This document shows, in pieces, positions 1,606 through 38,218 of a stretch of DNA of 42,963 nucleotides. The notes under the pieces were generated by a model. That model did no database searches, had not been told where the DNA came from, and saw only the letters and a program-made list of their open reading frames with translations. Numbering within the stretch: position 1 is the stretch's first letter; each line of letters opens with the position of its first letter. Origin of the DNA: Paramagnetospirillum marisnigri (lineage in GTDB: Bacteria; Pseudomonadota; Alphaproteobacteria; Rhodospirillales; Magnetospirillaceae); assembly GCF_001650715.1 (NCBI RefSeq), contig NZ_LWQT01000053.1:1-42963 (forward strand), given 5' to 3'. Both the position numbers and the translations under genes were made by a program.

Positions 1606-3393
1606 TTATTTGGCTGCGGGGCGGCTGGGCAGGGTGAAGCAGAACGTGCTTCCGCCCCCTTCGGTATCTTCAACCCAAATTTGTCCCCCATGCATCTCGA
1701 TGATCTTCTTGGCGCTGGTCAGGCCGATGCCGGTGCCTTCGTATTCATTCCGGGTATGAAGGCGCTGGAACAGGACGAAGATGCGGTCTCGGTATTCTGG
1801 CGCGATGCCTATTCCGTTGTCGCTTATCCTGATCAGCCAGTCGCCGTCTTTCTTGTGAGCGGTGACCGTGATCCTGGGCGGTTGGCCTGGGCGACGGTAT
1901 TTCAAGGCATTGCCAATGATGTTCTGGAACACGCGCACCAGTTCCACCGGATTGCCAGAGATGACGGGAAGGTCATCGGCAACCTGGACGCTACCTCCAG
2001 CATCGGCCAAGGCCATGGTAAGGTTGTCCAGGGCCTGGAGCGCCACGTCGCGTAAATTCACGATCTTGTCCGGTTCGCCATGGCGGCCGATACGGGAATA
2101 GTCCAGAAGATCATTGATCAACTGGCTCATACGCAGCGCTCCCTCGCGGGCATAGCCGATGAATTCATGGGCATCCTGGTCCAGTGAATCGCCATAGCGC
2201 TTGGCAAGCAGATCCACATAGGACACCACCATCCGGAGAGGCTCCTGTAGATCGTGGGATGCCACGTAGGCAAATTGCTCCAACTCGCTATTGGATGCCT
2301 GGAGCGCCGCAGTCCTCTGGGCCACAAGGGATTCCAGTTTGTCTCGATAGGAGTGAAGCTCACCTTCAACCGTCTTGAGAATTCGGCTGACCTCGATGGC
2401 TTCCCTGGGTCCGTGGGTGAGGACAACGACCGGCTCGCCCTTTCCCAAAGCGACGACCGGATCGGCCAGGGCCCGGACGGATCGGCTGATCTTGCCGCCG
2501 ATGACCCAGGCGATCATGATTCCGGCAACCAACAGAACCGCCACCATGACGTAGATGATGGTGATCCGGTTCAGAGTCTCTGCCAGGACGAGGGTCCACG
2601 GGCGAGAGATGCCGACCGACCAGCCTGTTTTGGCCGATCGGCTAAAAGCGATGATGACATCCAGCCCTTCCAGCGTACGCGTCTCGACGATCCCTTCATG
2701 ATCCTGCGTCATCCGTTCCAGCAGGGCGGGAACGCCTTTCTTGCCCACCAGCTTGTCTGCCAGATGGGTGCGCGCCGCGATCACGCCCTGTGGGTCGAAC
2801 ACTGCCGCCATGTGACCTTCGGGAAGGCGCTGGTCGGCCAGCAGTCTTTGGAGGGTATCAGGGAGGAGGCCGATGCTCAGCACGTGAGTGATCTCGCCGT
2901 CCCTTCGAACCGGGACGTCTACACTGAGAACATGACGCTGAAGCAGGCCGCCGATGTAGAGATCGGAGATCAGGGGAATGCCGTGTGTGAAAACCTTCTC
3001 GACCTGGTTGAGGTTGCCATGCCGGGCCAAAGGATCGCCGTAAGGGCGCAAGGTATTCAGGATCTGCTGGCCGCTGCGGTCGGTCACCACGATGGTGAAG
3101 CCGGGAAAACTGTCCGTCAGGACGGCCTTTGCCTCGGCGTGAAAGGACGCCAAGTCCCCGGTCCGAAGCCTGGGGGAGAGTGCCAATGCCTGGGCAACGT
3201 TCAGGCTGATGCTGAATTCCCGATCCATGGCGGCGGTCAGCGCGCGGGCGGTCTGGAGAGTATCAGTCTGGACCTGAGCTTTTTGGTTTTCGTAGAGAAC
3301 CAGGGCGAGGAGGGCCAGTGCCACAACCAGTGGTGCGGTCGCGGTGAGGGCGCTGGCAAACAGTCTGGTCCGGATGCTGGCGCCAGATTGCAT
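1606..3393 (-). CDS. Membrane sensor histidine kinase
   Basis: A 595-residue two-component sensor. There is a membrane segment at about 18-34, a periplasmic sensing region at about 35-275 (cache-like by position and length), a second membrane segment at about 278-298, then a linker or HAMP-like stretch and a short coiled coil. The kinase core is complete: H-box around His380 in SHDLQEPL, N-box NIIGNALKY (491-499), G1 DNGIGI (525-530) and G2 GTGIGL (553-558). The H-box resembles that of phytochrome-type and light-sensor kinases. No response regulator lies next to it in the window, so it may signal to a distant partner. Its gene follows the peptide-export and binding-protein genes on the same strand after about 390 bases. 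The ATG at 3391-3393 has no strong Shine-Dalgarno. Confidence 0.9.
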   Translation of the reverse strand: MQSGASIRTRLFASALTATAPLVVALALLALVLYENQKAQVQTDTLQTARALTAAMDREFSISLNVAQALALSPRLRTGDLASFHAEAKAVLTDSFPGFTIVVTDRSGQQILNTLRPYGDPLARHGNLNQVEKVFTHGIPLISDLYIGGLLQRHVLSVDVPVRRDGEITHVLSIGLLPDTLQRLLADQRLPEGHMAAVFDPQGVIAARTHLADKLVGKKGVPALLERMTQDHEGIVETRTLEGLDVIIAFSRSAKTGWSVGISRPWTLVLAETLNRITIIYVMVAVLLVAGIMIAWVIGGKISRSVRALADPVVALGKGEPVVVLTHGPREAIEVSRILKTVEGELHSYRDKLESLVAQRTAALQASNSELEQFAYVASHDLQEPLRMVVSYVDLLAKRYGDSLDQDAHEFIGYAREGALRMSQLINDLLDYSRIGRHGEPDKIVNLRDVALQALDNLTMALADAGGSVQVADDLPVISGNPVELVRVFQNIIGNALKYRRPGQPPRITVTAHKKDGDWLIRISDNGIGIAPEYRDRIFVLFQRLHTRNEYEGTGIGLTSAKKIIEMHGGQIWVEDTEGGGSTFCFTLPSRPAAK

Positions 3394-3576: not shown

Positions 3577-3692
3577 CCTCGATGCTGGGAAGGGGAGAAA
3601 CGCTGGTCCGAGCAAGGCTCCCCTTCGGCCTCGGCCGTCGGCTCGAAGCCTACCGGTTGCGCCGTGTGCCGGGAGTGTGGCCGGGTGCCACA
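3577..3692. repeat. Dispersed intergenic repeat, copy B
   Basis: Second copy of the repeat at 98-205. It sits in the 388-base gap between the histidine kinase and the binding-protein gene. Unlike copy A it lacks the TATAAT hexamer next to the TTCCCA box. The rest of the gap (3394-3576 and 3693-3781) holds an AT-rich patch at 3434-3454 just upstream of the kinase, which may be its promoter region. I see nothing else there. Confidence 0.6.
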
Positions 3693-3781: not shown

Positions 3782-4894
3782 TCATGGCCCGATGGTGGCA
3801 CGCGGCAATGGGACACCGTTGCTCCAGCGTGATATTTGATACCGGATACCAAGGGCATCGCCGCTATGGCTGAAGCGCACATTACCCAATGGTGTGGCGA
3901 ATTCATTGGCATGCAGGGCTGCCGCCACGGCCTTGGGTTCGGCTGATTTGGCGTGGCGTACCGCCTGGGCAAAGACCGTGACGGCGGCATAGGCGCTCAG
4001 TCCGTAGATGGTCACCGGCCGCCCGGCTTCGATCAAAGCCTTGCCGATCGCATCCAAACCCTCAAAGGTCGGATCGGCCGCAATGCTTGCAAACACCACG
4101 CCCTCCGCCGCAGGACCGGCTGCCTGCCAGAAAGCGGCCGGCGATGCGGCCTCGCCCGTAAAGAATGTGGGGTGGTAGTCCTGTTCGGCGCTGACCCGGA
4201 CAAGCTGGACCATGTCATCGAAATATCCGCCGAAAAATACCACGTCGACACCTCGATCCTTCAGGCGGCGAACCAGGGGTAAGACGGCGGTGCTATCGCC
4301 GCTCAACGCGTCATAGACGGCCTCTCTCAGCTTGCGCTTGTTCAGACCGTCCTTGAATCCGTCGGCCAGCCCCTTGCCATAGCTTCGCTTGTCGTGGATG
4401 ACGGCGATTTGCTTGTCGGCGTATTTGCGAGCGACGTGATTGGCCATGGCATCGGCCAAGCGGTCGTCCCGCCCGAACAGACGAAAGACCAGATCAAGCC
4501 CTCTTTCCGTCAATTTTGGGACGCTGCTGGATGGCGACAGCATGAGGACACCGTCCTCCTGATACACCAGTGAAGCAGGGACCGAGGCGCCCGAACAGGC
4601 ATGACCGATCACCGCGCTGATGCCGTTCTTCACCATCTGCGTGGCCACCAAAGCACCTTGGCGGGCGTCGCAATGATCGTCGACCAATTCCAGACGCAAT
4701 GGCTCGCCCAGCAGGCCGCCCCCCAGGTTGATCGCCTTTACGGCGGCTTCCGCTCCTGCCTTAAGGTCCTGACCCAGGATGGACTCGCCGGCCAGGGGGG
4801 CCGCCAGGGCAATGACCACCTCGGCCAGTGCCGGAGTGGTCGGCGCGACAAGGATCATCGCCACCAGTGATGCCGCCAACCTCCGGAATTTCAT
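3782..4894 (-). CDS. Periplasmic binding protein, branched-chain amino acid (LivK) type
   Basis: A 370-residue type I periplasmic binding protein. A signal peptide (1-24) ends in PALA before EVVIAL. The mature protein carries features of the Leu/Ile/Val-binding family: an opening AAPLAGE segment, GADLKAG-like (here LKAGAEAAVKAIN), a VIGHACSGAS hinge loop and a C-terminal LGNVRFSHSGD segment. It starts 18 bases after the preceding ABC subunit gene, with AGGGTGAT in front of the ATG, so it is probably co-transcribed with the export genes. No LivHMGF permease or ATPase genes are nearby. It could act as a sensor for the downstream kinase or serve a distant uptake system; both roles are inference. 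Confidence 0.85.
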   Translation of the reverse strand: MKFRRLAASLVAMILVAPTTPALAEVVIALAAPLAGESILGQDLKAGAEAAVKAINLGGGLLGEPLRLELVDDHCDARQGALVATQMVKNGISAVIGHACSGASVPASLVYQEDGVLMLSPSSSVPKLTERGLDLVFRLFGRDDRLADAMANHVARKYADKQIAVIHDKRSYGKGLADGFKDGLNKRKLREAVYDALSGDSTAVLPLVRRLKDRGVDVVFFGGYFDDMVQLVRVSAEQDYHPTFFTGEAASPAAFWQAAGPAAEGVVFASIAADPTFEGLDAIGKALIEAGRPVTIYGLSAYAAVTVFAQAVRHAKSAEPKAVAAALHANEFATPLGNVRFSHSGDALGIRYQISRWSNGVPLPRATIGP

Positions 4895-4912: not shown

Positions 4913-7804
4913 CTAACTGATCTGTCGCCGGGCCAGTTCGGCGAAGACGCCGTTACGGGCCATCAGCACGTCGAAATTACCCTCTTCCTCAACCCGCCCG
5001 TTGACCACGACATAGATTCGATCCGCGGCCTGGATCGTGCTGAGGCGATGGGCGATGACCACCCGCGTTGCCTTCAGCTTCTGCAGGCTTTGGCTGACGA
5101 TGGTCTGTGTACGATTGTCCAGGGCGCTGGTGGCCTCGTCGAACAGGATGATTCGCGGCTTATGCACCAGCGCGCGCGCGATCAACAGCCGCTGACGCTG
5201 CCCGCCCGACAGGGTCGTACCGCCGCCGATCAAGACCGTGTGCATGCCCATGGGCATGGCCTCGATCTCATCGGCCAACCCGACGGCATGGGCCGCCTCC
5301 CAAGCATCGTCGACCGTCAGCCGTGATGAGCCGACGATATTCTTGAAGATGCTGCCGCTCGACAGCTTTCCGTTTTGCAGAACGACGCCGATCTGACGCC
5401 GGACGGCCTCGGGTTTCAGACCGGCGAGGTCCTTTCCCTCATAAAAGATGCTGCCGCTATCCGGCGTCTCAAACCCCATCAGCAGGCGGAATACGGTCGA
5501 CTTGCCCGAGCCGGACGGACCGACGAAGGCGATGAACTCGCCCGGCCCCGCGCGCATGGACACTTCGCGCAGCACCGGCGGCCCGTCTTCGCCGTAGCGG
5601 AAGGAGACGTTGTTGATCTCGATATTGCCGTGAAGAATCCCCGGCTCGGCCTTGTCCCCATGGCTTTCCGGCACGGTGTGCAGGATCGGTCGGGCCAGAT
5701 CATAAAGCGGCACTACCGTCAGCGCCGTCTGCATCACGGTCGACAGGCAGAGGGTTGCGGCCAGGAACTGCCCAAACGAGGCGGAAAAGGCGATGAACTG
5801 CCCCATTCCCAGAGGCTGACCGCCATAACCCATGACCATATACAACAGCATCGCCCCGAAGATGGGATAGGCGGCGTCGAAGCAATCGAGGCCAAGCTTG
5901 ATCCGCATCCAACGCTTGTTGTGGGCGACGTCCTCGGTGAAGGCCGAGGCCCAGGCGGCGAAGGCGCGTTTCTCGGCCCCGGCCACCCGGATGGTGGCAA
6001 TTCCCCGGATAATCTCGATGATCAGGCCACTCAAGCGGCCGCGCTTGCCCAGCATGGCGCGCTTTATCCGTCCCTGGCGGATATTGGCGATCAGGGTCAC
6101 CGTCATGGCGACAAAGACCGTTCCCACGGCGATTGTCGCCAGCCGCGCGTCATACCAGAACAGCAGGATCAAATTGACCAGGGAGCCCACACCGCCCAAC
6201 AGGGCCACGACCGTAGTGCCTCCCAGCAATTCACGGATTTGGCCAATGCTGTTGGCCCGCTGGGCCAGTTCGCCGGTGGAGAACTGGCGAAAGAAGTTGG
6301 CCGGCAGTTTGAGCAGCCGGTCCCACACCGCGGCGCCGACCTCACCATTCATCACGGTTTCCGCCCGCAGCAAGGTGAAGGCACGAACGATTTCGAACAC
6401 CCCGGCCCCCACTGCCGCAGCGACGAGACCGAAGATGACGTCGAACAACTGGTCGCGGGCGGATAAGGGCACGATGCTGTCGAACAGCAAGCCGGTGACC
6501 ACCGGGACCGCCAGCGCCAGCACGCTTGCCGCCAGACTGATGCCAAGCAAGGTCGCCATTTCGCGTTTGGTGTTGCGCAGTGCGAAAGTCAGGACGTCGA
6601 CCGCCGTTAAAGGCTGATCGGGAAACGGCCGGTACAAGGTGTAGGCTTCGCCCTGCAAACCTTGGGCGATAGCGGCCGTAATGCGGCGTCGGCTGCCGGT
6701 CTCGGGATCGACGAGACGATAGCCCCCACCCGAACAGGGCAACAGCGCCACCGGCGCGTCGCCCTCCATCAGGAACCCCACGAGCGGCCCATTGTCGTGG
6801 CGCCACCATTGGCGATCCAGCGTCACCAGCCGGGACCGCAGGCGAGAAGCCTCAATGACGGCGACCAGAATGTCCCGCGTCGCTGAGGTCCCCACCAGAT
6901 CGTCGGGCTCGATAACCGAAGCGCCGATCGCCTCGGCAACAAGACGGCAGGCGGCCGTCACCCGTGACGCGCTGGATGGCCCGGCAACCGGCGGAATCTC
7001 GATGCCGTAGAGCGCGAGCATGTTGCCGAATGAGCGCTCGACCACCCCGCGTTCATGCCGGTCCTGCGCGTCGATGCGGCTGCGGTCGGCCAACCGGCAC
7101 TCATGCCCCCAGGCCAGCAAGCGTATCGCCTCCGCCGCTTCATGGCGGTCCAGCGCCGACCGCAGGCCGGGCAGCAGGCTCTCGGTCCGGGCGATGGTGA
7201 GGTTCGTGAAGGGCTCCACGTCCAAACCCGTCGCTGTGGTCAGCGGCGTGGGAAGATCACCCTCGGCCGTCACCCACCAGACCCCTCGTACCGAGGCGAG
7301 ACTCGATGGCTCCTCGACGGTGATGGGGCTATCGTCGGTGATGGTCAGTGATCGGCGGCCGCATGTGCGGTTCGCAGTGCAGCCGGAGAGTGCGGTCAGC
7401 CAGGCGTCGAGAATTCCGGCCACCGCGGATCGGAGCGCGCTGCTTTCCTCGGCCAGGGCGAATAATTGATCGCGGCTGATCTCCAGCACGCGCGTACCGG
7501 TGGCGACGCCCACCGCCATCAAAGTTCCGACCTGATCGCATTGATCGTCGCGACCGGGGGGCATGGCCAAGGCCGCCTCTCCGGCGGCCACGGCGAACAA
7601 TGGGCGACGTTCGATGCCGGTGCCGTCGCTGGCCCGCTCGGTAACCAGGAGAAGCTCTATTTTTCCGTCCAGCACCAAGAGCACCAGATCGGGATGGTCC
7701 AGGCGTCGCGACCAACGCCCGTCCACCTGGACCAAATGCCCCAGACCGGTCAAGGCATCAACCAGACTTTGCCGCAATTCGGGGGCGAGGCTATCACTCT
7801 GCAC
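4913..7804 (-). CDS. Large ABC exporter subunit, NHLP/NHLM peptide-export type (no peptidase)
   Basis: A 963-residue fused permease-ATPase. The first 400 residues are soluble, with no C39 peptidase motif; residues 40-130 read like a degenerate cyclic-nucleotide-binding fold. The exporter membrane domain runs from about 417 to 700. The ATPase has Walker A GPSGSGKST (762-770), signature LSGGQRQRLLIARAL and Walker B IILFDEATSALD. Length and layout fit the second ABC subunit of NHLP-type bacteriocin export systems. The start is GTG (7802-7804), overlapping the stop of the previous ABC gene by 11 bases, so the two are translationally coupled. It probably forms a heterodimer with the peptidase-bearing subunit in the inner membrane. 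Confidence 0.85.
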   Translation of the reverse strand: MQSDSLAPELRQSLVDALTGLGHLVQVDGRWSRRLDHPDLVLLVLDGKIELLLVTERASDGTGIERRPLFAVAAGEAALAMPPGRDDQCDQVGTLMAVGVATGTRVLEISRDQLFALAEESSALRSAVAGILDAWLTALSGCTANRTCGRRSLTITDDSPITVEEPSSLASVRGVWWVTAEGDLPTPLTTATGLDVEPFTNLTIARTESLLPGLRSALDRHEAAEAIRLLAWGHECRLADRSRIDAQDRHERGVVERSFGNMLALYGIEIPPVAGPSSASRVTAACRLVAEAIGASVIEPDDLVGTSATRDILVAVIEASRLRSRLVTLDRQWWRHDNGPLVGFLMEGDAPVALLPCSGGGYRLVDPETGSRRRITAAIAQGLQGEAYTLYRPFPDQPLTAVDVLTFALRNTKREMATLLGISLAASVLALAVPVVTGLLFDSIVPLSARDQLFDVIFGLVAAAVGAGVFEIVRAFTLLRAETVMNGEVGAAVWDRLLKLPANFFRQFSTGELAQRANSIGQIRELLGGTTVVALLGGVGSLVNLILLFWYDARLATIAVGTVFVAMTVTLIANIRQGRIKRAMLGKRGRLSGLIIEIIRGIATIRVAGAEKRAFAAWASAFTEDVAHNKRWMRIKLGLDCFDAAYPIFGAMLLYMVMGYGGQPLGMGQFIAFSASFGQFLAATLCLSTVMQTALTVVPLYDLARPILHTVPESHGDKAEPGILHGNIEINNVSFRYGEDGPPVLREVSMRAGPGEFIAFVGPSGSGKSTVFRLLMGFETPDSGSIFYEGKDLAGLKPEAVRRQIGVVLQNGKLSSGSIFKNIVGSSRLTVDDAWEAAHAVGLADEIEAMPMGMHTVLIGGGTTLSGGQRQRLLIARALVHKPRIILFDEATSALDNRTQTIVSQSLQKLKATRVVIAHRLSTIQAADRIYVVVNGRVEEEGNFDVLMARNGVFAELARRQIS

Positions 7805-9983
7805 GGATCAACTCCGCATAGGGGCCGGGAATGGCACGCAGGCTGTCGTGATCGCCGCGTTGGAGAACTTTTCCATCGCTCAGAACGATAATCTCATCGC
7901 AGTCCCGGATTGTGCTTAGGCGATGAGCGACGACGATCACCGTACAGCCCCGACGCCGCAGGTTTTCCATCACCCGAATTTCAGTCAGAGGGTCCAGGGC
8001 GGATGTGGCCTCGTCCAGGACAAGGATGGACGGACAGCGCGCCAACGCCCGGGCGATTTCGATGCGCTGCGCCTGACCGCCGCTGAGGTTACGTCCACCC
8101 TCGGCAATATGGCCGTCATAGGCCTTGGCACGGGTGGCGATGAATTCGTGGATACAGGCATCCTTGGCCGCCTGAACCACGACGGCCTCGGGCACGGTTG
8201 GGTCCCAGAGGGTGATGTTGTTGCGGATGGTGTCGTCGAACAGGAAGATATCCTGGCTGACCTGGGCCAACGAGCTGACCACCTGCCGCCGCGGGCGCTC
8301 TGCCAATGGCTCGCCGTCGAGCAAGATCGCACCGGCGGAAGGGCTTAGCAGGCCGACGGCAAGCTTGCCCAGGGTGGACTTGCCACTTCCGGATCCGCCC
8401 ACCAACGCCACCCACGATCCGGGGGTAAGGGCCAGGCTAAACCCTTCGAGTAGCGGAGGCGAGAGCGGGCTATAGCCGAAACTGACGTCACGAAACTCCA
8501 GATAGCCTGCCAGCTTGGCCGGGAATTCGGTTTCAGAGTCATGACGTTCAAAGCGCGAATCTACCGGCGTGTTGGTCACGTCGCTCAACTGGACGAGGGT
8601 ATTCTTGAGGGATTGGTACTGTTCCGCCACCGCCGTCAGCCGGTTGATCGGCTCGGCAAAGCTGGCGAGCAGCGATTGAAAGGCGACCAAGGCGCCCAAG
8701 GTGATGGCGCCATCCATGGCCAGCAGGCCGCCATAGCCGAGGACGACCGCCGATGTCAGGCCGTTCAGCAGGGGCGACAGCGCATTGAGGAGCCCGGACA
8801 GAATCTCGAGATGCCGCCGGCCGTTCAGGACCAGTGCCTGCAATCCGGTCCATTCGCTGAAGAAGTCGGGCTCGGTTCCGGTGGCTTTCAGCGTCTCGAT
8901 CAGTTGGACGCCTTCAATCGAGCAACTGGCCAGCTTGTCTTCGTCGCGCTCAAGTCGCTTGGCGCCGTTCTCCCGCAGCTTGGCGACGGCATGTATGGCC
9001 GCCAAATTCACCAGGCTCAATCCGATGCCGATAGCCGCCAGCCGGACATCGTACAGCACCATCACGATGGCGTAGAAAACGGCACAGATCAGGTTGAACG
9101 CAACGTCGGACAGCGGTCCGGCGACCAGATCGGCGAAACGCCTGCTGGCTTCGATCCGGGCCGCCACATCGCCGACATAGCGTTGGGTGAAGAACACCAT
9201 GGGCAGCCGGAGCAATTGCCAGAACAGTTGCGTTGACGCCGAAATCCCCAGCTTCACCTGAAGCCTCAGTTGATGCACGCCGCGCAGCCATGTCAGCGCC
9301 GAGCGCATCACCGCCGTCAGCGCCATGCCAAGCAGCAGAGGCATCAGCCAGTCGTTGAGGCCGTTTCCCAGCACATCGTCGATGAAGATCCGGCTGATGG
9401 CCGGGATGACGATGCCGGGCACGACAAGAAAGAGGCTGACGAGAATGATCAGGGCGACGGCGTCCCATGACCGGTCCAGCCGCCGTCCCACCGCCGCCGT
9501 GAAGCTCGGGGGGCGTCCGCCGGGAACGAATCCCGGACCGGCGGCGAAAGTCAGCACAACGCCGGTGAAATACTCGTCGAATTCGTCGAAGCCGATGGCG
9601 CGACGGCCCAGGGCGGGGTCGTTGACATGGACGCAATCGCGGCCGATCCCCTCCAGCACCAGGAAATGGTTCATCCCCCAGAACAAAATCGCCGGCATCT
9701 TCAAATCGGCAAAGGCGGACAGGTCCGAGAGCTTCAGCCCCTTGGCCTCAAGGCCATAGCCGCGGGCGGCGGCCAGGATATTCTTGGCCTTGCTGCCGTC
9801 GCGCGACACACCGCACGCCACCCGCAACTCATCAAGCGGCACCCAGCGGCCGTAATGGGCGAGAATCATGCCCAGCGCGGCGGCACCGCATTCCAGGGCC
9901 TGAATCTGCAAGATCGTCGGACAGCGTCGGCGCGTCATCCGGGGCAGATATGGCGCGGACGGATCATCCACAGTCGGGGTCAC
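7794..9983 (-). CDS. Peptidase-containing ABC exporter (C39 family), NHLP/NHLM type
   Basis: A 729-residue exporter that cleaves double-glycine leaders and pumps out the peptide. The N-terminal C39 peptidase has an intact triad: Cys32 in ALECGAA, His106 in GMNHFLVLE and Asp122 in VNDPALG. The membrane domain spans about 170-445. The ATPase has Walker A GGSGSGKST (529-537), signature LSGGQ (633-637) and Walker B ILVLDEATSALD (from 653). The start is GTG at 9981-9983, overlapping the HlyD stop by four bases (GTGA). The natural substrate is presumably the GG peptide encoded at 11316-11465, upstream in the same direction. Confidence 0.9.
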   Translation of the reverse strand: MTPTVDDPSAPYLPRMTRRRCPTILQIQALECGAAALGMILAHYGRWVPLDELRVACGVSRDGSKAKNILAAARGYGLEAKGLKLSDLSAFADLKMPAILFWGMNHFLVLEGIGRDCVHVNDPALGRRAIGFDEFDEYFTGVVLTFAAGPGFVPGGRPPSFTAAVGRRLDRSWDAVALIILVSLFLVVPGIVIPAISRIFIDDVLGNGLNDWLMPLLLGMALTAVMRSALTWLRGVHQLRLQVKLGISASTQLFWQLLRLPMVFFTQRYVGDVAARIEASRRFADLVAGPLSDVAFNLICAVFYAIVMVLYDVRLAAIGIGLSLVNLAAIHAVAKLRENGAKRLERDEDKLASCSIEGVQLIETLKATGTEPDFFSEWTGLQALVLNGRRHLEILSGLLNALSPLLNGLTSAVVLGYGGLLAMDGAITLGALVAFQSLLASFAEPINRLTAVAEQYQSLKNTLVQLSDVTNTPVDSRFERHDSETEFPAKLAGYLEFRDVSFGYSPLSPPLLEGFSLALTPGSWVALVGGSGSGKSTLGKLAVGLLSPSAGAILLDGEPLAERPRRQVVSSLAQVSQDIFLFDDTIRNNITLWDPTVPEAVVVQAAKDACIHEFIATRAKAYDGHIAEGGRNLSGGQAQRIEIARALARCPSILVLDEATSALDPLTEIRVMENLRRRGCTVIVVAHRLSTIRDCDEIIVLSDGKVLQRGDHDSLRAIPGPYAELIRAE

Positions 9984-11227
9984 AGTGCCAGCATCTGCCG
10001 GAGCGCCGGAATCAGCAATGCGATCGGCCGGTCCTCACGCACCGTCACCCAGACCTTGGCCAGAGAGCCGCTGCTCAACGGGATCGAGGCCGCCTTTGCC
10101 GAGGTCCAGCGATAACCACTCGCGGTCGATGGATCGGGAACGAGGGCGATCTTGATGGCGATCGCCGGCCCATCCTTCATGAAATGGCGAGAGAGGTCGT
10201 CATTGGCCAGGGCGCTGTTCACCTCGACCTGGGATTGAGGCAGCGGCGAGACCCAGACGACACGGCCCAGGATCGAGCCGAATTCCTCGCGCCGGATATT
10301 GGTGGGCGAGACCCGAACCGACATGCCGGGATGGATGTTCTTGCCCTGCTCGGCGGCCACATAGGCCATGACCTCCAGCCCATTGCCTCCCGATTCGATG
10401 GTCAGCAGGCGCTTGCCGGCCGAAACCAGGGAATGCAGCGATACCGGGGCCATGACCACCCGGCCAGGATCTTGCGAATATACCTGTGTCGCCAGATCCA
10501 AGGCCAGCCGGGCGCTGTTGATTTGCGCAGTGGCGTCGTGGATTTTCTGATCGAACGATTCCAGCGCCTGATCGCGTTGGTCCAGCAGCGCTCTCGGTAA
10601 ATTCAGGGACGAGATCTCCATCCGAATCCGGTTGGCGGTCACGCGCGCGGCGAAAAGATGCTCTTGCGCCTCATGCACCCGGTCGGCCGAGCCCGGGTTC
10701 TTGGCCAATCCGGCCTTTCGTTCTCCGACCTGTCGTTCAATATCGGTGATATTGCGCTCGGACAGATCGAGGGCCTCAAGCAAGCCGGCGCGGCGCTGCG
10801 CGATAGCGTGCCGCTCAGCCTCGATCTGGGCGGCAAATCTGCTTTGGCTGGCGGCGCGCTGAGCGTTCAGCAGGGCCAATCTGGCGGCCAACTCGTCGAC
10901 GCTGCGGCTGCTCTCCGGCGCATTGAGCCGCGCAATCAGTTGGCCGCCTTTCACCTCCTGACCGATGGGGGCCAGATATTCCAGCCAGCCTTCCTTGGGT
11001 GAAAAGATGTCGACGAAGACACCATCCTCCACATGGACCAGCCCCTGCCCCTGGACGGTGACACGATAGGTGCCGAACCATGCCCAGGCCGCCGCCGCGA
11101 CCAGGATCAGGCCGCAGGCGACAACCCCAAGCCAGCCGACCGGCCGGACGACCTGCATGGCCATGTCCAGCCGATCAGGCGACGAGATCTGCTTGAGAGC
11201 CTCTGGTCTGAACTTCAGGCCTGCCAA
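9980..11227 (-). CDS. HlyD-family secretion adaptor (NHLP system type)
   Basis: A 415-residue membrane fusion protein that links the ABC exporters to the outer parts of the secretion path. There is a short cytoplasmic N-terminus, one membrane segment at about 33-51, a lipoyl-like half-motif (IFSPKEGWLEYLAPIGQEVKGG), a long coiled coil (about 105-275) rich in Ala/Glu/Arg, then the second lipoyl half and beta-barrel. The apparent start is TTG (11225-11227) with GGAG about ten bases upstream. An outer-membrane TolC partner is not in the window. It begins 88 bases after the precursor peptide gene and is the first of four closely packed minus-strand genes. Confidence 0.85.
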   Translation of the reverse strand: MAGLKFRPEALKQISSPDRLDMAMQVVRPVGWLGVVACGLILVAAAAWAWFGTYRVTVQGQGLVHVEDGVFVDIFSPKEGWLEYLAPIGQEVKGGQLIARLNAPESSRSVDELAARLALLNAQRAASQSRFAAQIEAERHAIAQRRAGLLEALDLSERNITDIERQVGERKAGLAKNPGSADRVHEAQEHLFAARVTANRIRMEISSLNLPRALLDQRDQALESFDQKIHDATAQINSARLALDLATQVYSQDPGRVVMAPVSLHSLVSAGKRLLTIESGGNGLEVMAYVAAEQGKNIHPGMSVRVSPTNIRREEFGSILGRVVWVSPLPQSQVEVNSALANDDLSRHFMKDGPAIAIKIALVPDPSTASGYRWTSAKAASIPLSSGSLAKVWVTVREDRPIALLIPALRQMLAL

Positions 11228-11315: not shown

Positions 11316-11465
11316 TCAGCCGGCCTTGCCGCCAGCCTTGCCACCGGCCACCTTATCGAGGTCGGCCTCATCAAGCTCAACCACCTTGGGCGGCGTGGTC
11401 GGAGTGGCCGTCTTCACCTCATCCACTTTTGCCGCGGATGCGGACGTCTTGACGTCTGTGCTCAT
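11316..11465 (-). CDS. Double-glycine leader peptide, probable export substrate with a seven-residue core
   Basis: The product is 49 residues from the ATG at 11463-11465, which has GGGAGA nine bases upstream. A longer frame to 11531 lacks a good start. Residues 1-29 are polar and Thr/Ala/Lys-rich. Residues 30-42, ELDEADLDKVAGG, match the classical double-glycine leader pattern recognised by C39 peptidases. Only KAGGKAG follows, and it contains a second GG (45-46) built from a 12-base near-tandem repeat. It lies directly upstream of the HlyD adaptor and the C39 exporter, which fits the cognate substrate. No modifying enzyme or immunity protein is evident. The core is so short that a signal-peptide role, or a decoy or degenerate precursor, must be considered. 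Confidence 0.7.
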   Translation of the reverse strand: MSTDVKTSASAAKVDEVKTATPTTPPKVVELDEADLDKVAGGKAGGKAG

Positions 11466-35776: not shown

Positions 35777-35852
35777 GTCCCCATCGTCTAGAGGCCTAGG
35801 ACACCGCCCTCTCACGGCGGTAACCGGGGTTCGAATCCCCGTGGGGACGCCA
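35777..35852 (+). tRNA. tRNA-Glu(CTC)
   Basis: 76 bases with CCA encoded. Acceptor GTCCCCA pairs with TGGGGAC. The anticodon stem CCGCC/GGCGG holds loop CTCTCAC with anticodon CTC, and the T-arm is CGGGGTTCGAATCCCCG. All stems are complete. It marks the left boundary of the accessory region on its 3' side. I found no duplicate of its 3' end (attR) to the right within the window. Confidence 0.97.
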
Positions 35853-35962
35853 TGCGATTTACCCGCCGAATCCGTTGGTTGTGATATCACGACCAAATGG
35901 TGTCCCGCAAGGTGAGCTTGCATTGGAGAGGCGCGGAAATACCAATGACATAAGCAAAAAGA

Positions 35963-36033
35963 CCGCTAACCCTGAGGATTAGCGGCCTGCCGTTACCGGC
36001 TAAGAAGATCGTTTGGCGACCTTTTTCTTAGCC
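35963..36033. repeat. Two hairpins downstream of tRNA-Glu
   Basis: CCGCTAA/TTAGCGG (35963-35985, loop 9) and GGCTAAGAA/TTCTTAGCC (35998-36033, loop 18) stand in tandem in the 279-base gap between the tRNA and the helix-turn-helix gene. The second is followed by no T run. They might end tRNA transcription or mark an integration or operator region. The rest of the gap has no gene. Confidence 0.5.
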
Positions 36034-36131
36034 CAGGCAGGTCGAAGTGTCAACGGAAAACCATGAGTTTTCCGAACGGGCTAGCTCGTCCTTTTCTCCT
36101 GTCGTCATCCGCGCCCCTCGCAGGAGGGACG

Positions 36132-37277
36132 ATGACCTATGGCCATGTGCGAGGACATTTTGAGCCGCGATCAGACGCTATAAGCACCGAGGCACCACCA
36201 TCGCCTCGGCAACGGATGCAGACCGCGCTGGCGGCAGCAGCCGGAAAGTGGCGGGCGAAGCAGGAGGCCCAGCGTCGACCGATGCGGCCCGGAGAATTGG
36301 AGGCCCTGGAAGCCGAGTGGCATGACCAGGCCGAGCGGTCATTGCGGGCCAGGGAGGCTCAGCGCCAGGGCAAACGCACAAAACGGGCACGCGACACCAA
36401 CCCCGCACCGCCGGAGACCAAGCTCTGGTCGAAGCCCATGAGCCTACAGGCGGCGACCGATACCCGCCTGACAATGGGGGCCAGACTGGCGCTTCAGGCG
36501 ATTAGATCGCTTACCGCTCGCTCGAAACGGGTAAGCCGCAACGGCTTGGCCGTGCTGCTGGGGGTCAGCCCCCGAACGATCCAGAGATATATCCATCTGC
36601 TGAAATATCGTGGCTACATCCAAACTCGCCTGATCACCAACCGCGATGGATGGGTAATCGGTCAGATTATTGAGATTACCGAGAAAGTGCTGCCCCCTCA
36701 CCATCGCCCACGCCGATCCGAGACCATGGCTGACGGCTTGGCTCGTTGCGTGAGCCACCACGAAAAAACCGTGAGCATAGGGGAGACAGGATCGTCCCAC
36801 AGTGAGTCTAAATACCAAAACTATATAGAGATATCGCCTCGGAAAAACATATCAACGGGCCATTCCTGCGTCACCCAGAAGCAAGGAAACATCCCCTCGG
36901 AGGATACAATGAATTCCAGGCAGTACGAGTATGGCAGTCCTGAACTCCGTAGCCGGGTAAAGGCGCTATTATCCAAGCCATCCCCCTACACAACCAGAGT
37001 CAGAGCAAAAGCTGTCGCTTTGCTTTACGCAACAAATTCCAATCGCTTTATATGCCCTCGAACAGACTTCGTCCCTGGTCTACTAGGGCCAAGGCCCAAA
37101 GGCACTCGCGCAGATTCACTGATTCTTGATGACCTAAAAACGGCAATAACTACTGGTCGCATTAGTATCGAGGAGATTCGCAGCATCCTGTCTGAATTGT
37201 TTGGCCTTGATTGCGCATATTCGTGGGATGCGGACTTTTTTGAATTGATGGATTTGTTTAATCAGGCCAATTCGTGA
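36132..37277 (+). CDS. Helix-turn-helix protein, replication-initiator-like
   Basis: A 381-residue protein from the ATG at 36132 (AGGAGG four bases upstream; the frame is open from 36063). The N-terminus is basic and Gln/Arg-rich, with a probable coiled coil. A winged-helix region at about 112-185 carries SRNGLAVLLGVSPRTIQRYI and a following LLKYRGYIQTRLI wing. The C-terminal half (from about 225) is encoded by clearly more AT-rich DNA and has no motif I recognise. Such layouts occur in plasmid and phage replication or regulatory proteins; I cannot name the family. It opens the accessory module after tRNA-Glu. Confidence 0.7.
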   Translation: MTYGHVRGHFEPRSDAISTEAPPSPRQRMQTALAAAAGKWRAKQEAQRRPMRPGELEALEAEWHDQAERSLRAREAQRQGKRTKRARDTNPAPPETKLWSKPMSLQAATDTRLTMGARLALQAIRSLTARSKRVSRNGLAVLLGVSPRTIQRYIHLLKYRGYIQTRLITNRDGWVIGQIIEITEKVLPPHHRPRRSETMADGLARCVSHHEKTVSIGETGSSHSESKYQNYIEISPRKNISTGHSCVTQKQGNIPSEDTMNSRQYEYGSPELRSRVKALLSKPSPYTTRVRAKAVALLYATNSNRFICPRTDFVPGLLGPRPKGTRADSLILDDLKTAITTGRISIEEIRSILSELFGLDCAYSWDADFFELMDLFNQANS

Positions 37278-37301
37278 ATTCCCCTCCCACACACAAACGG
37301 A

Positions 37302-37527
37302 ACGCCCCTCGTCGGGGCGTACCCCTCCCCGGCCCTCCCCGCCATATGCGGGGAGGGAGCAAAATCGGTGTGGCGCTGTTCGCGCCACAACCTGATGAGC
37401 TAAGGGGCTTTCAGCCCGCTCGCGCGGTCAATGGGCAAGCGCCGGGCGATGCCCGTCGCCAGGGGCCGGGATGCCCCAAAAATCTGCAAGCAGATCGGCG
37501 CAAGCGCCGCCCTCCGGGTTTTGGGAG
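37302..37527. repeat. Cluster of consecutive hairpins
   Basis: At least eight stem-loops follow one another. ACGCCCC/GGGGCGT (37302-37320). A perfect 10-bp stem with a five-base loop (37333-37357). TGTGGCGC/GCGCCACA (37369-37389). GGGCT/AGCCC inside GAGC/GCTC (37397-37421). CGGGC/GCCCG (37443-37455). GGGGC/GCCCC (37462-37477). ATCTGC/GCAGAT (37482-37495). CGGCGC/GCGCCG (37496-37509), directly abutting the previous one. CCCAAAA (37475-37481) can also pair with TTTTGGG (37519-37525), closing the last two into a branched structure; this competes with part of the 37462-37477 stem. The cluster lies between two genes of the accessory module. A structured RNA, a replication or transfer origin, or a protein-binding array are possible. 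Confidence 0.8.
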
Positions 37528-37615
37528 CTACCCCGCCCGCCCCCTGTCCCTTGACCTTGCTACCCCCGATTTCACGACGAGGAAAAGGTGCGAAACCCAC
37601 TCGGAGGACAGGATC

Positions 37616-38218
37616 ATGAGCTTCACCATTGGTAACGGCTGGGATGCCGATTTTGGTTATTTCAGCATGCGCGGCCGCAGGGCTGTTGGAAGGCGGCTTC
37701 ACCCAGCCTGCGAGCGGGCGCGCGCCTATGACCTCCCGGAAGGCTTCCTGCCCGGCCAATGGCACAAATGGCACGTCCTGAAGTCAGTACGCCGGAGCAG
37801 GACTTTCCGGCCAAAGATCGAAGATGCCCGGCAGCGACTATTCTATCGCGCCATGAACCGGAACCCGATGTATTACAGCAATATCGCCAAGCGTCCAGCA
37901 GGCGCCTTGCGCCTCGGTTATACCTGGGACTGGCGTAAACCCGCGAAGCCCGACCCCGACCAGATCAAGGAAGACCACTCCCCCCGCCAGATCATCGTCG
38001 AGGTGTCGGCCGAGACCGCTCGTCTGCTCGCCGAACTGGCCACCTGGTGCACTGAAGCCGACCAGGCCAACAAAAGTTGCACCTCCCATGGCCCCCTGAC
38101 CGTTGACGGCCTGGTCGCCATGCTGGTGGAGGACGCCGCCATGGTGGTGTCCCGGCCAGGCTCTTGGGAAGGCGCAAACATGGCTCAGGTCTTCGCGTCT
38201 CACGGCTATCAGGTTTAG
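37616..38218 (+). CDS. Unknown protein of the accessory module
   Basis: A 200-residue protein with GGAGG eight bases before the ATG. The N-terminal half is basic and Trp/Tyr-rich (WDADFGYFSMRGRRAVGRRL, YYSNIAKRPAGALRLGYTWDW). The C-terminal half starts PRQIIVEVSAETARLLAELATW and continues VDGLVAMLVEDAAMVV, which look like helical segments. No membrane helix, no signal peptide, no named family. It is ten bases upstream of the next gene and preceded by the hairpin cluster. Confidence 0.65.
   Translation: MSFTIGNGWDADFGYFSMRGRRAVGRRLHPACERARAYDLPEGFLPGQWHKWHVLKSVRRSRTFRPKIEDARQRLFYRAMNRNPMYYSNIAKRPAGALRLGYTWDWRKPAKPDPDQIKEDHSPRQIIVEVSAETARLLAELATWCTEADQANKSCTSHGPLTVDGLVAMLVEDAAMVVSRPGSWEGANMAQVFASHGYQV

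Follow-up and report, generated by a model that had tools for sequence, protein, structure and literature searches.

Introduction

How small can the product of a double-glycine (GG) export system be? This question is raised by a small gene in the genome of Paramagnetospirillum marisnigri (assembly GCF_001650715.1), which appears to encode a GG leader followed by only seven residues and a stop. The gene lies on contig NZ_LWQT01000053.1, of which positions 1 to 42,963 of the forward strand were analysed; this whole stretch of 42,963 nucleotides is referred to as the window. Behind the gene is an operon for an exporter of the NHLP type, and the usual annotation of such systems is as exporters of bacteriocins or RiPPs. 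The original prediction, made from the letters of the DNA, was of either a signalling peptide or a decayed precursor. These are still the two leading readings, and a signalling function is put forward here only as what the peptide may have.

The precursor gene and its export operon

The precursor gene (Table 1) has an ATG start and a TGA stop, with GGGAG (seen by eye) about 10 nt upstream of the ATG. Its leader box, ELDEADLDKVAGG, has all the residues of a C39 (double-glycine) substrate: L-12, L-7, V-4, G-2 and G-1. When the 1066 stop-to-stop frames of the window were searched with a GG-box profile, built from 50 distinct boxes of other precursors and leaving out the window peptide, the precursor frame scored 21.2 bits (E 1.3e-5), the second-best frame had E 3, and 20 Markov-1 shuffles of the window had top scores of 3.9–8.3 bits. 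The leader box is far above chance, and the GG-leader peptide with seven residues after its leader is as had been predicted.

Table 1. Precursor, exporter and neighbouring features in the window
Feature	Position	Strand	Evidence
GG-leader precursor gene, 49 aa	11316..11465	(-)	translation; box profile E 1.3e-5
Leader, 42 residues, box ELDEADLDKVAGG with L-12, L-7, V-4, GG	11340..11465	(-)	translation, box profile
Core KAGGKAG, 7 residues	11319..11339	(-)	translation, codons
Two 12-base near-repeats (GGKA GGKA)	11322..11345	(-)	codons compared by eye
HlyD-type adaptor, NHLP export system, TTG start	9980..11227	(-)	TIGR03794 254.6 bits, cut-off 156.2
C39 peptidase/permease/ATPase (ABC1), 4-base overlap with hlyD	7794..9983	(-)	TIGR03796 961.6 bits, cut-off 853.3; Peptidase_C39 E 7.7e-32
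Second permease/ATPase (ABC2), 11-base overlap with ABC1	4913..7804	(-)	TIGR03797 896.8 bits, cut-off 709.4
Periplasmic binding protein (Peripla_BP_6), 18 bases past ABC2; possible operon member	3782..4894	(-)	
dCache sensor histidine kinase, 388 bases beyond binding protein	1606..3393	(-)	dCache_1, HisKA, HATPase_c

The peptide gene heads the operon, and the exporter genes behind it are co-directional, overlapping and intact in frame. HlyD, ABC1 and ABC2 are all three over the NCBIfam cut-offs for the NHLP/NHLM export system, so the predicted pairing of a GG peptide with a C39 exporter stands. Residues 13–725 of ABC1 match a solved ABC-type bacteriocin transporter (4ry2), and we take its C39 catalytic residues, picked out by eye, to be the Cys in ECGAA, the His in NHF and the Asp in NDPALG. 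A scan between the peptide gene and hlyD revealed neither a terminator nor a special RNA fold (z -1.23), and a simple scan of the same strand upstream of the peptide gene revealed no sigma-70 promoter.

A tblastn search of 43 further loci, nearly all of the NHLP type, gave nothing above 50 bits for the binding protein; the kinase had matches in four (L104, L082, L097 and L159), one of them at 55 percent over 226 residues. The opposite flank is housekeeping: FolP, TilS, Pal, TolB, MoeA and IGPS by Pfam, and FtsH by eye. Of 17 window proteins that were scanned, the peptide included, none was recognised as a RiPP-maturation enzyme, and no immunity gene was recognised among the window proteins scanned.

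Relation to known export systems and their precursors

The exporter is of a known kind; the precursor fits neither the NHLP precursor model (TIGR03793, nitrile-hydratase-like leader) nor the Nif11 model (searched at E up to 1). The match to TIGR03793 is 13.1 bits against a cut-off of 50.9 and covers only the last 20 positions of the profile; TIGR03798 (Nif11-type precursor) is absent from the four families listed at E up to 1; and a search of PHROGs gave no match. Thus, the window shares all three export proteins (TIGR03794, TIGR03796 and TIGR03797) with the NHLP/NHLM system as described in passages of Haft, Basu and Mitchell 2010 (PMC2887384), but its precursor has no NHLP or Nif11 leader domain and a core of only seven residues, whereas, in the same passages, NHLPs beside LanM-like proteins have on average 26 residues after the GG and many NHLP cores are rich in Cys, Ser or Thr.

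The PCAT/AMS transporters (PCAT1, ComA and LahT) have the C39 domain in common with ABC1, and the leader positions tested with LahT150 (-12, -7, -4 and GG) are also found in the window leader; however, their known products are longer than a heptapeptide. The ComC-type pheromone, for example, has 17 residues.

Predicted cleavage and the proposed product

As described in passages of PMC6363468, LahT150 requires just 13 leader residues, among which positions -12, -7, -4 and the GG are of importance, and it cleaved a substrate of 17 residues, of which four follow the GG; neither there nor in related passages is a lower limit of core length for C39 export stated. The box of the window precursor has all of these positions and LahT150 cut before a four-residue tail, so that cleavage after the first GG is plausible by analogy. 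The original prediction had placed seven residues close to the lower limit for C39 export, which, for cleavage at least, the four-residue tail does not support. It had also envisaged a second cut at the internal GG, shortening the product to KAG. Relative to that site, the precursor has K-4, A-7 and D-12. According to the same passages of PMC6363468, K-4 abolished and D-12 impaired cleavage of LahT150 substrates (A-7 is not among the changes described there), and a second cut is therefore unlikely.

We propose that the peptide is the substrate to which the NHLP-type exporter behind its gene is dedicated. The box would be bound by the C39 domain of ABC1, which would cut once, after the first GG, and a complex of HlyD, ABC1 and ABC2 would release the unmodified cationic heptapeptide KAGGKAG (calculated [M+H]+ 588.35). 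Because of its small size and the absence of recognised maturation genes, a role as a signal or matrix-type oligopeptide would fit better than that of a pore-forming bacteriocin. The downstream binding protein would be a candidate receptor.

Very short cores in other genomes

From 101 loci and the window, 53 different GG-box precursors were collected with a pattern that has length limits. Their cores comprise one of 7 residues (the window peptide), one of 8, five of 11, one of 12, and the rest of 15–59. The range of 15–60 residues that had been assumed for known cores is thus too narrow: 8 of the 53 precursors have cores of 7–12 residues, a fraction that is no population estimate, as the set is biased toward short cores, being partly found with a short-core profile, and holds near-copies.

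Some of these cores are conserved. Loci L090 and L094, from different genera (L094 from that of the window), have an identical core of 11 residues, KLGAPIYKKKP, in which 6 of 11 codons differ, all silently, while the leaders agree at 26 of 42 positions. The core of L092, from a third genus, is two residues off each of these, with five silent changes. In L265 and L266, from one genus, an 8-residue core is identical at 6 of 8 residues, two codons having changed silently and two non-silently, and the leaders agree at 24 of 45 positions; in all such comparisons, an inner ATG was taken as the start of some precursors. Judged from these substitutions, the 11-residue core appears to be under selection, and that of 8 residues has at least kept its length. 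That related bacteria conserve such very short peptides suggests that the small size can be real, rather than a sign of a broken gene.

The 8-residue-core peptides (IAPRPRFS in L265, genome G349, and IVPRTRFS in L266, genome G477) come from two species. Like the window precursor, they have a proline/threonine-rich leader of 40–45 residues and the same box; they differ in the core itself and in that no exporter was recognised, by eye, in the 15 kb around either gene. In another locus (L270), a GG peptide of the 8-residue-core type adjoins an MFS-like gene (a weak match) and a MocR-type regulator.

An exporter clade with short-leader peptides

The exporters of L089, L090, L092, L094, L098 and L271 form one clade with support of 100/100, and in the first five of these loci a short-leader peptide is encoded upstream of hlyD. 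The gene order of the clade is a PepA-like protein, a short GG peptide (mostly with LGAPI cores), hlyD, two ABC proteins, an EpsB-type transferase, PrsK and PrsR, as read from scans where these were run and otherwise from similar protein starts (L090 being unscanned). In 4/4 loci scanned (L092, L094, L098 and L271), there is a PEP-CTERM-type protein that resembles PepA but falls below the cut-off; the glycosyltransferase TIGR03013 is over its cut-off in 3/3 (L089, L092 and L094), and the kinase PrsK (TIGR02916) over its cut-off in 2/2 (L089 and L094); the PrsR-like regulator of L092, the one locus scanned for it, is under the cut-off and cut by the end of the locus. In L271, about 8 kb separates the exporter from the peptide and the PEP-CTERM-type gene, both of which have the opposite orientation; the PEP-CTERM-type protein alone was recognised there, PrsK and EpsB being absent from the matches. 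This clade of NHLP exporters appears to be tied to XrtA/PEP-CTERM loci.

The window peptide has the short leader and the box of the clade's peptides, and its place upstream of hlyD is theirs in 5 of 6 loci. It differs from them in the core (11–22 residues in the clade), in the neighbourhood (a PEP-CTERM-type protein, and XrtA-type genes where scanned) and in its exporter, which falls outside the clade on a long branch (1.12), its place in the tree being unsure. Since the window exporter is not grouped there, the parallel with these conserved short cores is one of analogy only, and short-leader peptides beside exporters (a label that includes cores of 17 and 22 residues) would have had at least two origins or losses on this tree.

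The locus among relatives

A search of 316 further genomes of the order, at E up to 0.01, brought up no orthologue for the window peptide; the one weak match (G235, E 0.003) has no exporter within the 12 kb examined of its 12.6 kb contig. Matches at E 0.1–1 in 15 other genomes, from 60 relatives searched, were taken as chance. Of 55 genomes of the family, 18 have an NHLP C39 transporter over the cut-off, and the identity of the window's transporter to those compared does not exceed 52 percent; in a scan of genome contigs with ABC1, the full-length matches all had at most 48 percent identity. Plasmid records gave no match to the peptide, and ABC1 matched only at below 60 percent identity, in 20 records.

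Downstream of folP, 15 same-genus regions, two of which (L196 and L200) extend just about 2 kb there, gave no match to hlyD or to an NHLP-type ABC gene; the ABC matches in one of them (L190) were of 28 percent and below 65 bits, and the 17th genome of the genus (G012) had no folP match. Frames were listed for three flanks, and in two regions (L188 and L191) different long frames are seen between folP and a gene read by eye as glmM. As the locus thus varies and these relatives lack the operon there, it was probably gained as a unit. Two findings would have told against the original prediction: a homologue with a longer, frame-shifted core, and relatives that keep the exporter while lacking the gene. 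No such homologue was found, and in the relatives it is the exporter operon that is missing from the locus as well. In genome G008 (L202), folP is spread over two overlapping frames, apparently because of a frameshift.

Is the heptapeptide a product or a remnant?

The core contains, as had been noted, a near-tandem repeat of 12 bases, GGTGGCAAGGCT / GGCGGCAAGGCC, in which 10 of 12 bases are identical by eye: the codons are GGT GGC AAG GCT, then GGC GGC AAG GCC, then GGC. The first copy begins with the cleavage GG itself, giving the reading VA-GGKA-GGKA-G, and for this reason the KAGGKAG tail looks like a duplication of cleavage-site codons. The main rival to a dedicated substrate is decay: a longer core may have been lost, leaving a slippage-prone GGKA duplication and a stop, with the exporter intact and either idle or early in decay. 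This is kept alive by the repeat, which includes the cleavage site, and by the lack of orthologues; the missing operon in the 15 same-genus regions, pointing to a recent or sporadic gain, and the long branch of the exporter are also in its favour. However, the leader, the start, the ribosome site and the three exporter frames are all intact, and other species have conserved cores as short as 8 and 11 residues. Furthermore, the 88 nt past the stop (a small sample) have coding-like codon-position GC in no frame, second-position GC being 0.63–0.72 there versus 0.43–0.52 in seven measured genes, so that a hidden, frame-shifted longer core is unsupported. On balance, we consider decay unlikely, if well worth keeping in mind.

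Interruption of the core by an inserted intergenic repeat was also considered, and rejected: the spacer past the peptide gene has just a short stretch in common with an 83-nt repeat at 97–179 (I15), 81 percent complementary over 21 nt, and is not among the four genome matches of a 121-base query. That 83-nt sequence occurs in the window as a direct repeat (97–179 and 3580–3662, 82 percent identical), with another copy on contig C57 of the same genome.

The real substrate may instead be encoded elsewhere, or have been missed, with the small gene serving as a leader-only accessory, e.g., a regulator or decoy of the peptidase. GG precursors do lie apart from the exporter in other genomes. A search of the host's own genome for further GG-leader peptides, as had been suggested, was made with two profiles, both of which include the window peptide and, being short or short-core, can miss substrates. 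Profile A1 found the window peptide (E 2.5e-13) and then a long frame on contig C61 that contains a box (E 0.010), a possible second substrate; profile A2 found the window peptide (E 6.1e-4), one box beside the second NHLM operon (E 0.63) and two inside long frames (E 1.8). Against a substrate elsewhere, the only other boxes under E 1 sit at that second NHLM locus, on C61, and the window gene heads its operon as the short-leader peptides of five other loci precede hlyD. We judge this alternative improbable. Finally, an assembly or sequencing error hiding a longer core, conceivable in a GC-rich repeat at the very end of a gene known from a single assembly of 131 contigs, is most improbable given the GC pattern of the small sample past the stop.

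The reading that we would adopt, with confidence slightly better than even, is that the peptide serves as a dedicated substrate of the NHLM exporter and is released unmodified, as a heptapeptide. It is supported by the strength of the leader box, by three overlapping, co-directional exporter genes over curated cut-offs, by the first rank of the window peptide under own-genome profiles that include it, by the conservation of short cores elsewhere (L090/L094 and L265/L266) and by the modest needs of LahT150 (13 leader residues and a four-residue tail, in the passages of PMC6363468); the lack of a recognised RiPP maturase among the 17 scanned proteins supports the unmodified state. Counting against it are the single weak match in place of an orthologue, the likeness of the core to duplicated cleavage-site codons, the position of the exporter on a long branch outside the short-core clade, the lack of a sigma-70 promoter upstream in the simple scan, and the absence of the binding protein beside the other exporters compared.

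More broadly, Alphaproteobacteria may use NHLP-type exporters for unmodified oligopeptides of 7–12 residues, of which KAGGKAG would be the smallest seen, with one exporter clade wired into XrtA/PEP-CTERM exopolysaccharide loci; this we offer tentatively, as somewhat short of an even prospect. In the titles and abstract openings seen, no description of GG products of 7–12 residues was recognised, and on short C39-exported signals nothing on point except PMC10986499; within the literature examined (passages, titles and abstract openings) this size class is undescribed. Should export of tiny unmodified peptides prove true of some NHLP systems, gene finders may have discarded, because of the short tail, the substrates of exporters that appear to have none, and a class of GG-exported oligopeptide signals or matrix components would exist in Gram-negative bacteria.

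Additional observations

At the second NHLM locus (L083:3737-6358, plus strand), a protein of 873 aa without an NCBIfam match starts with a GG box, ELSDDELSSVNGG; given this box, the second exporter may have a large protein as its cargo. Next to ABC2 there lies a bacteriocin-transport-associated protein (TIGR03896, over its cut-off). In the window itself, positions 35777–38218 hold a tRNA-Glu, then a protein of 404 aa that matches HTH and DnaD-like domains only weakly, and an ORF that matches nothing in Pfam or PHROGs; this region could be a small integrated element.
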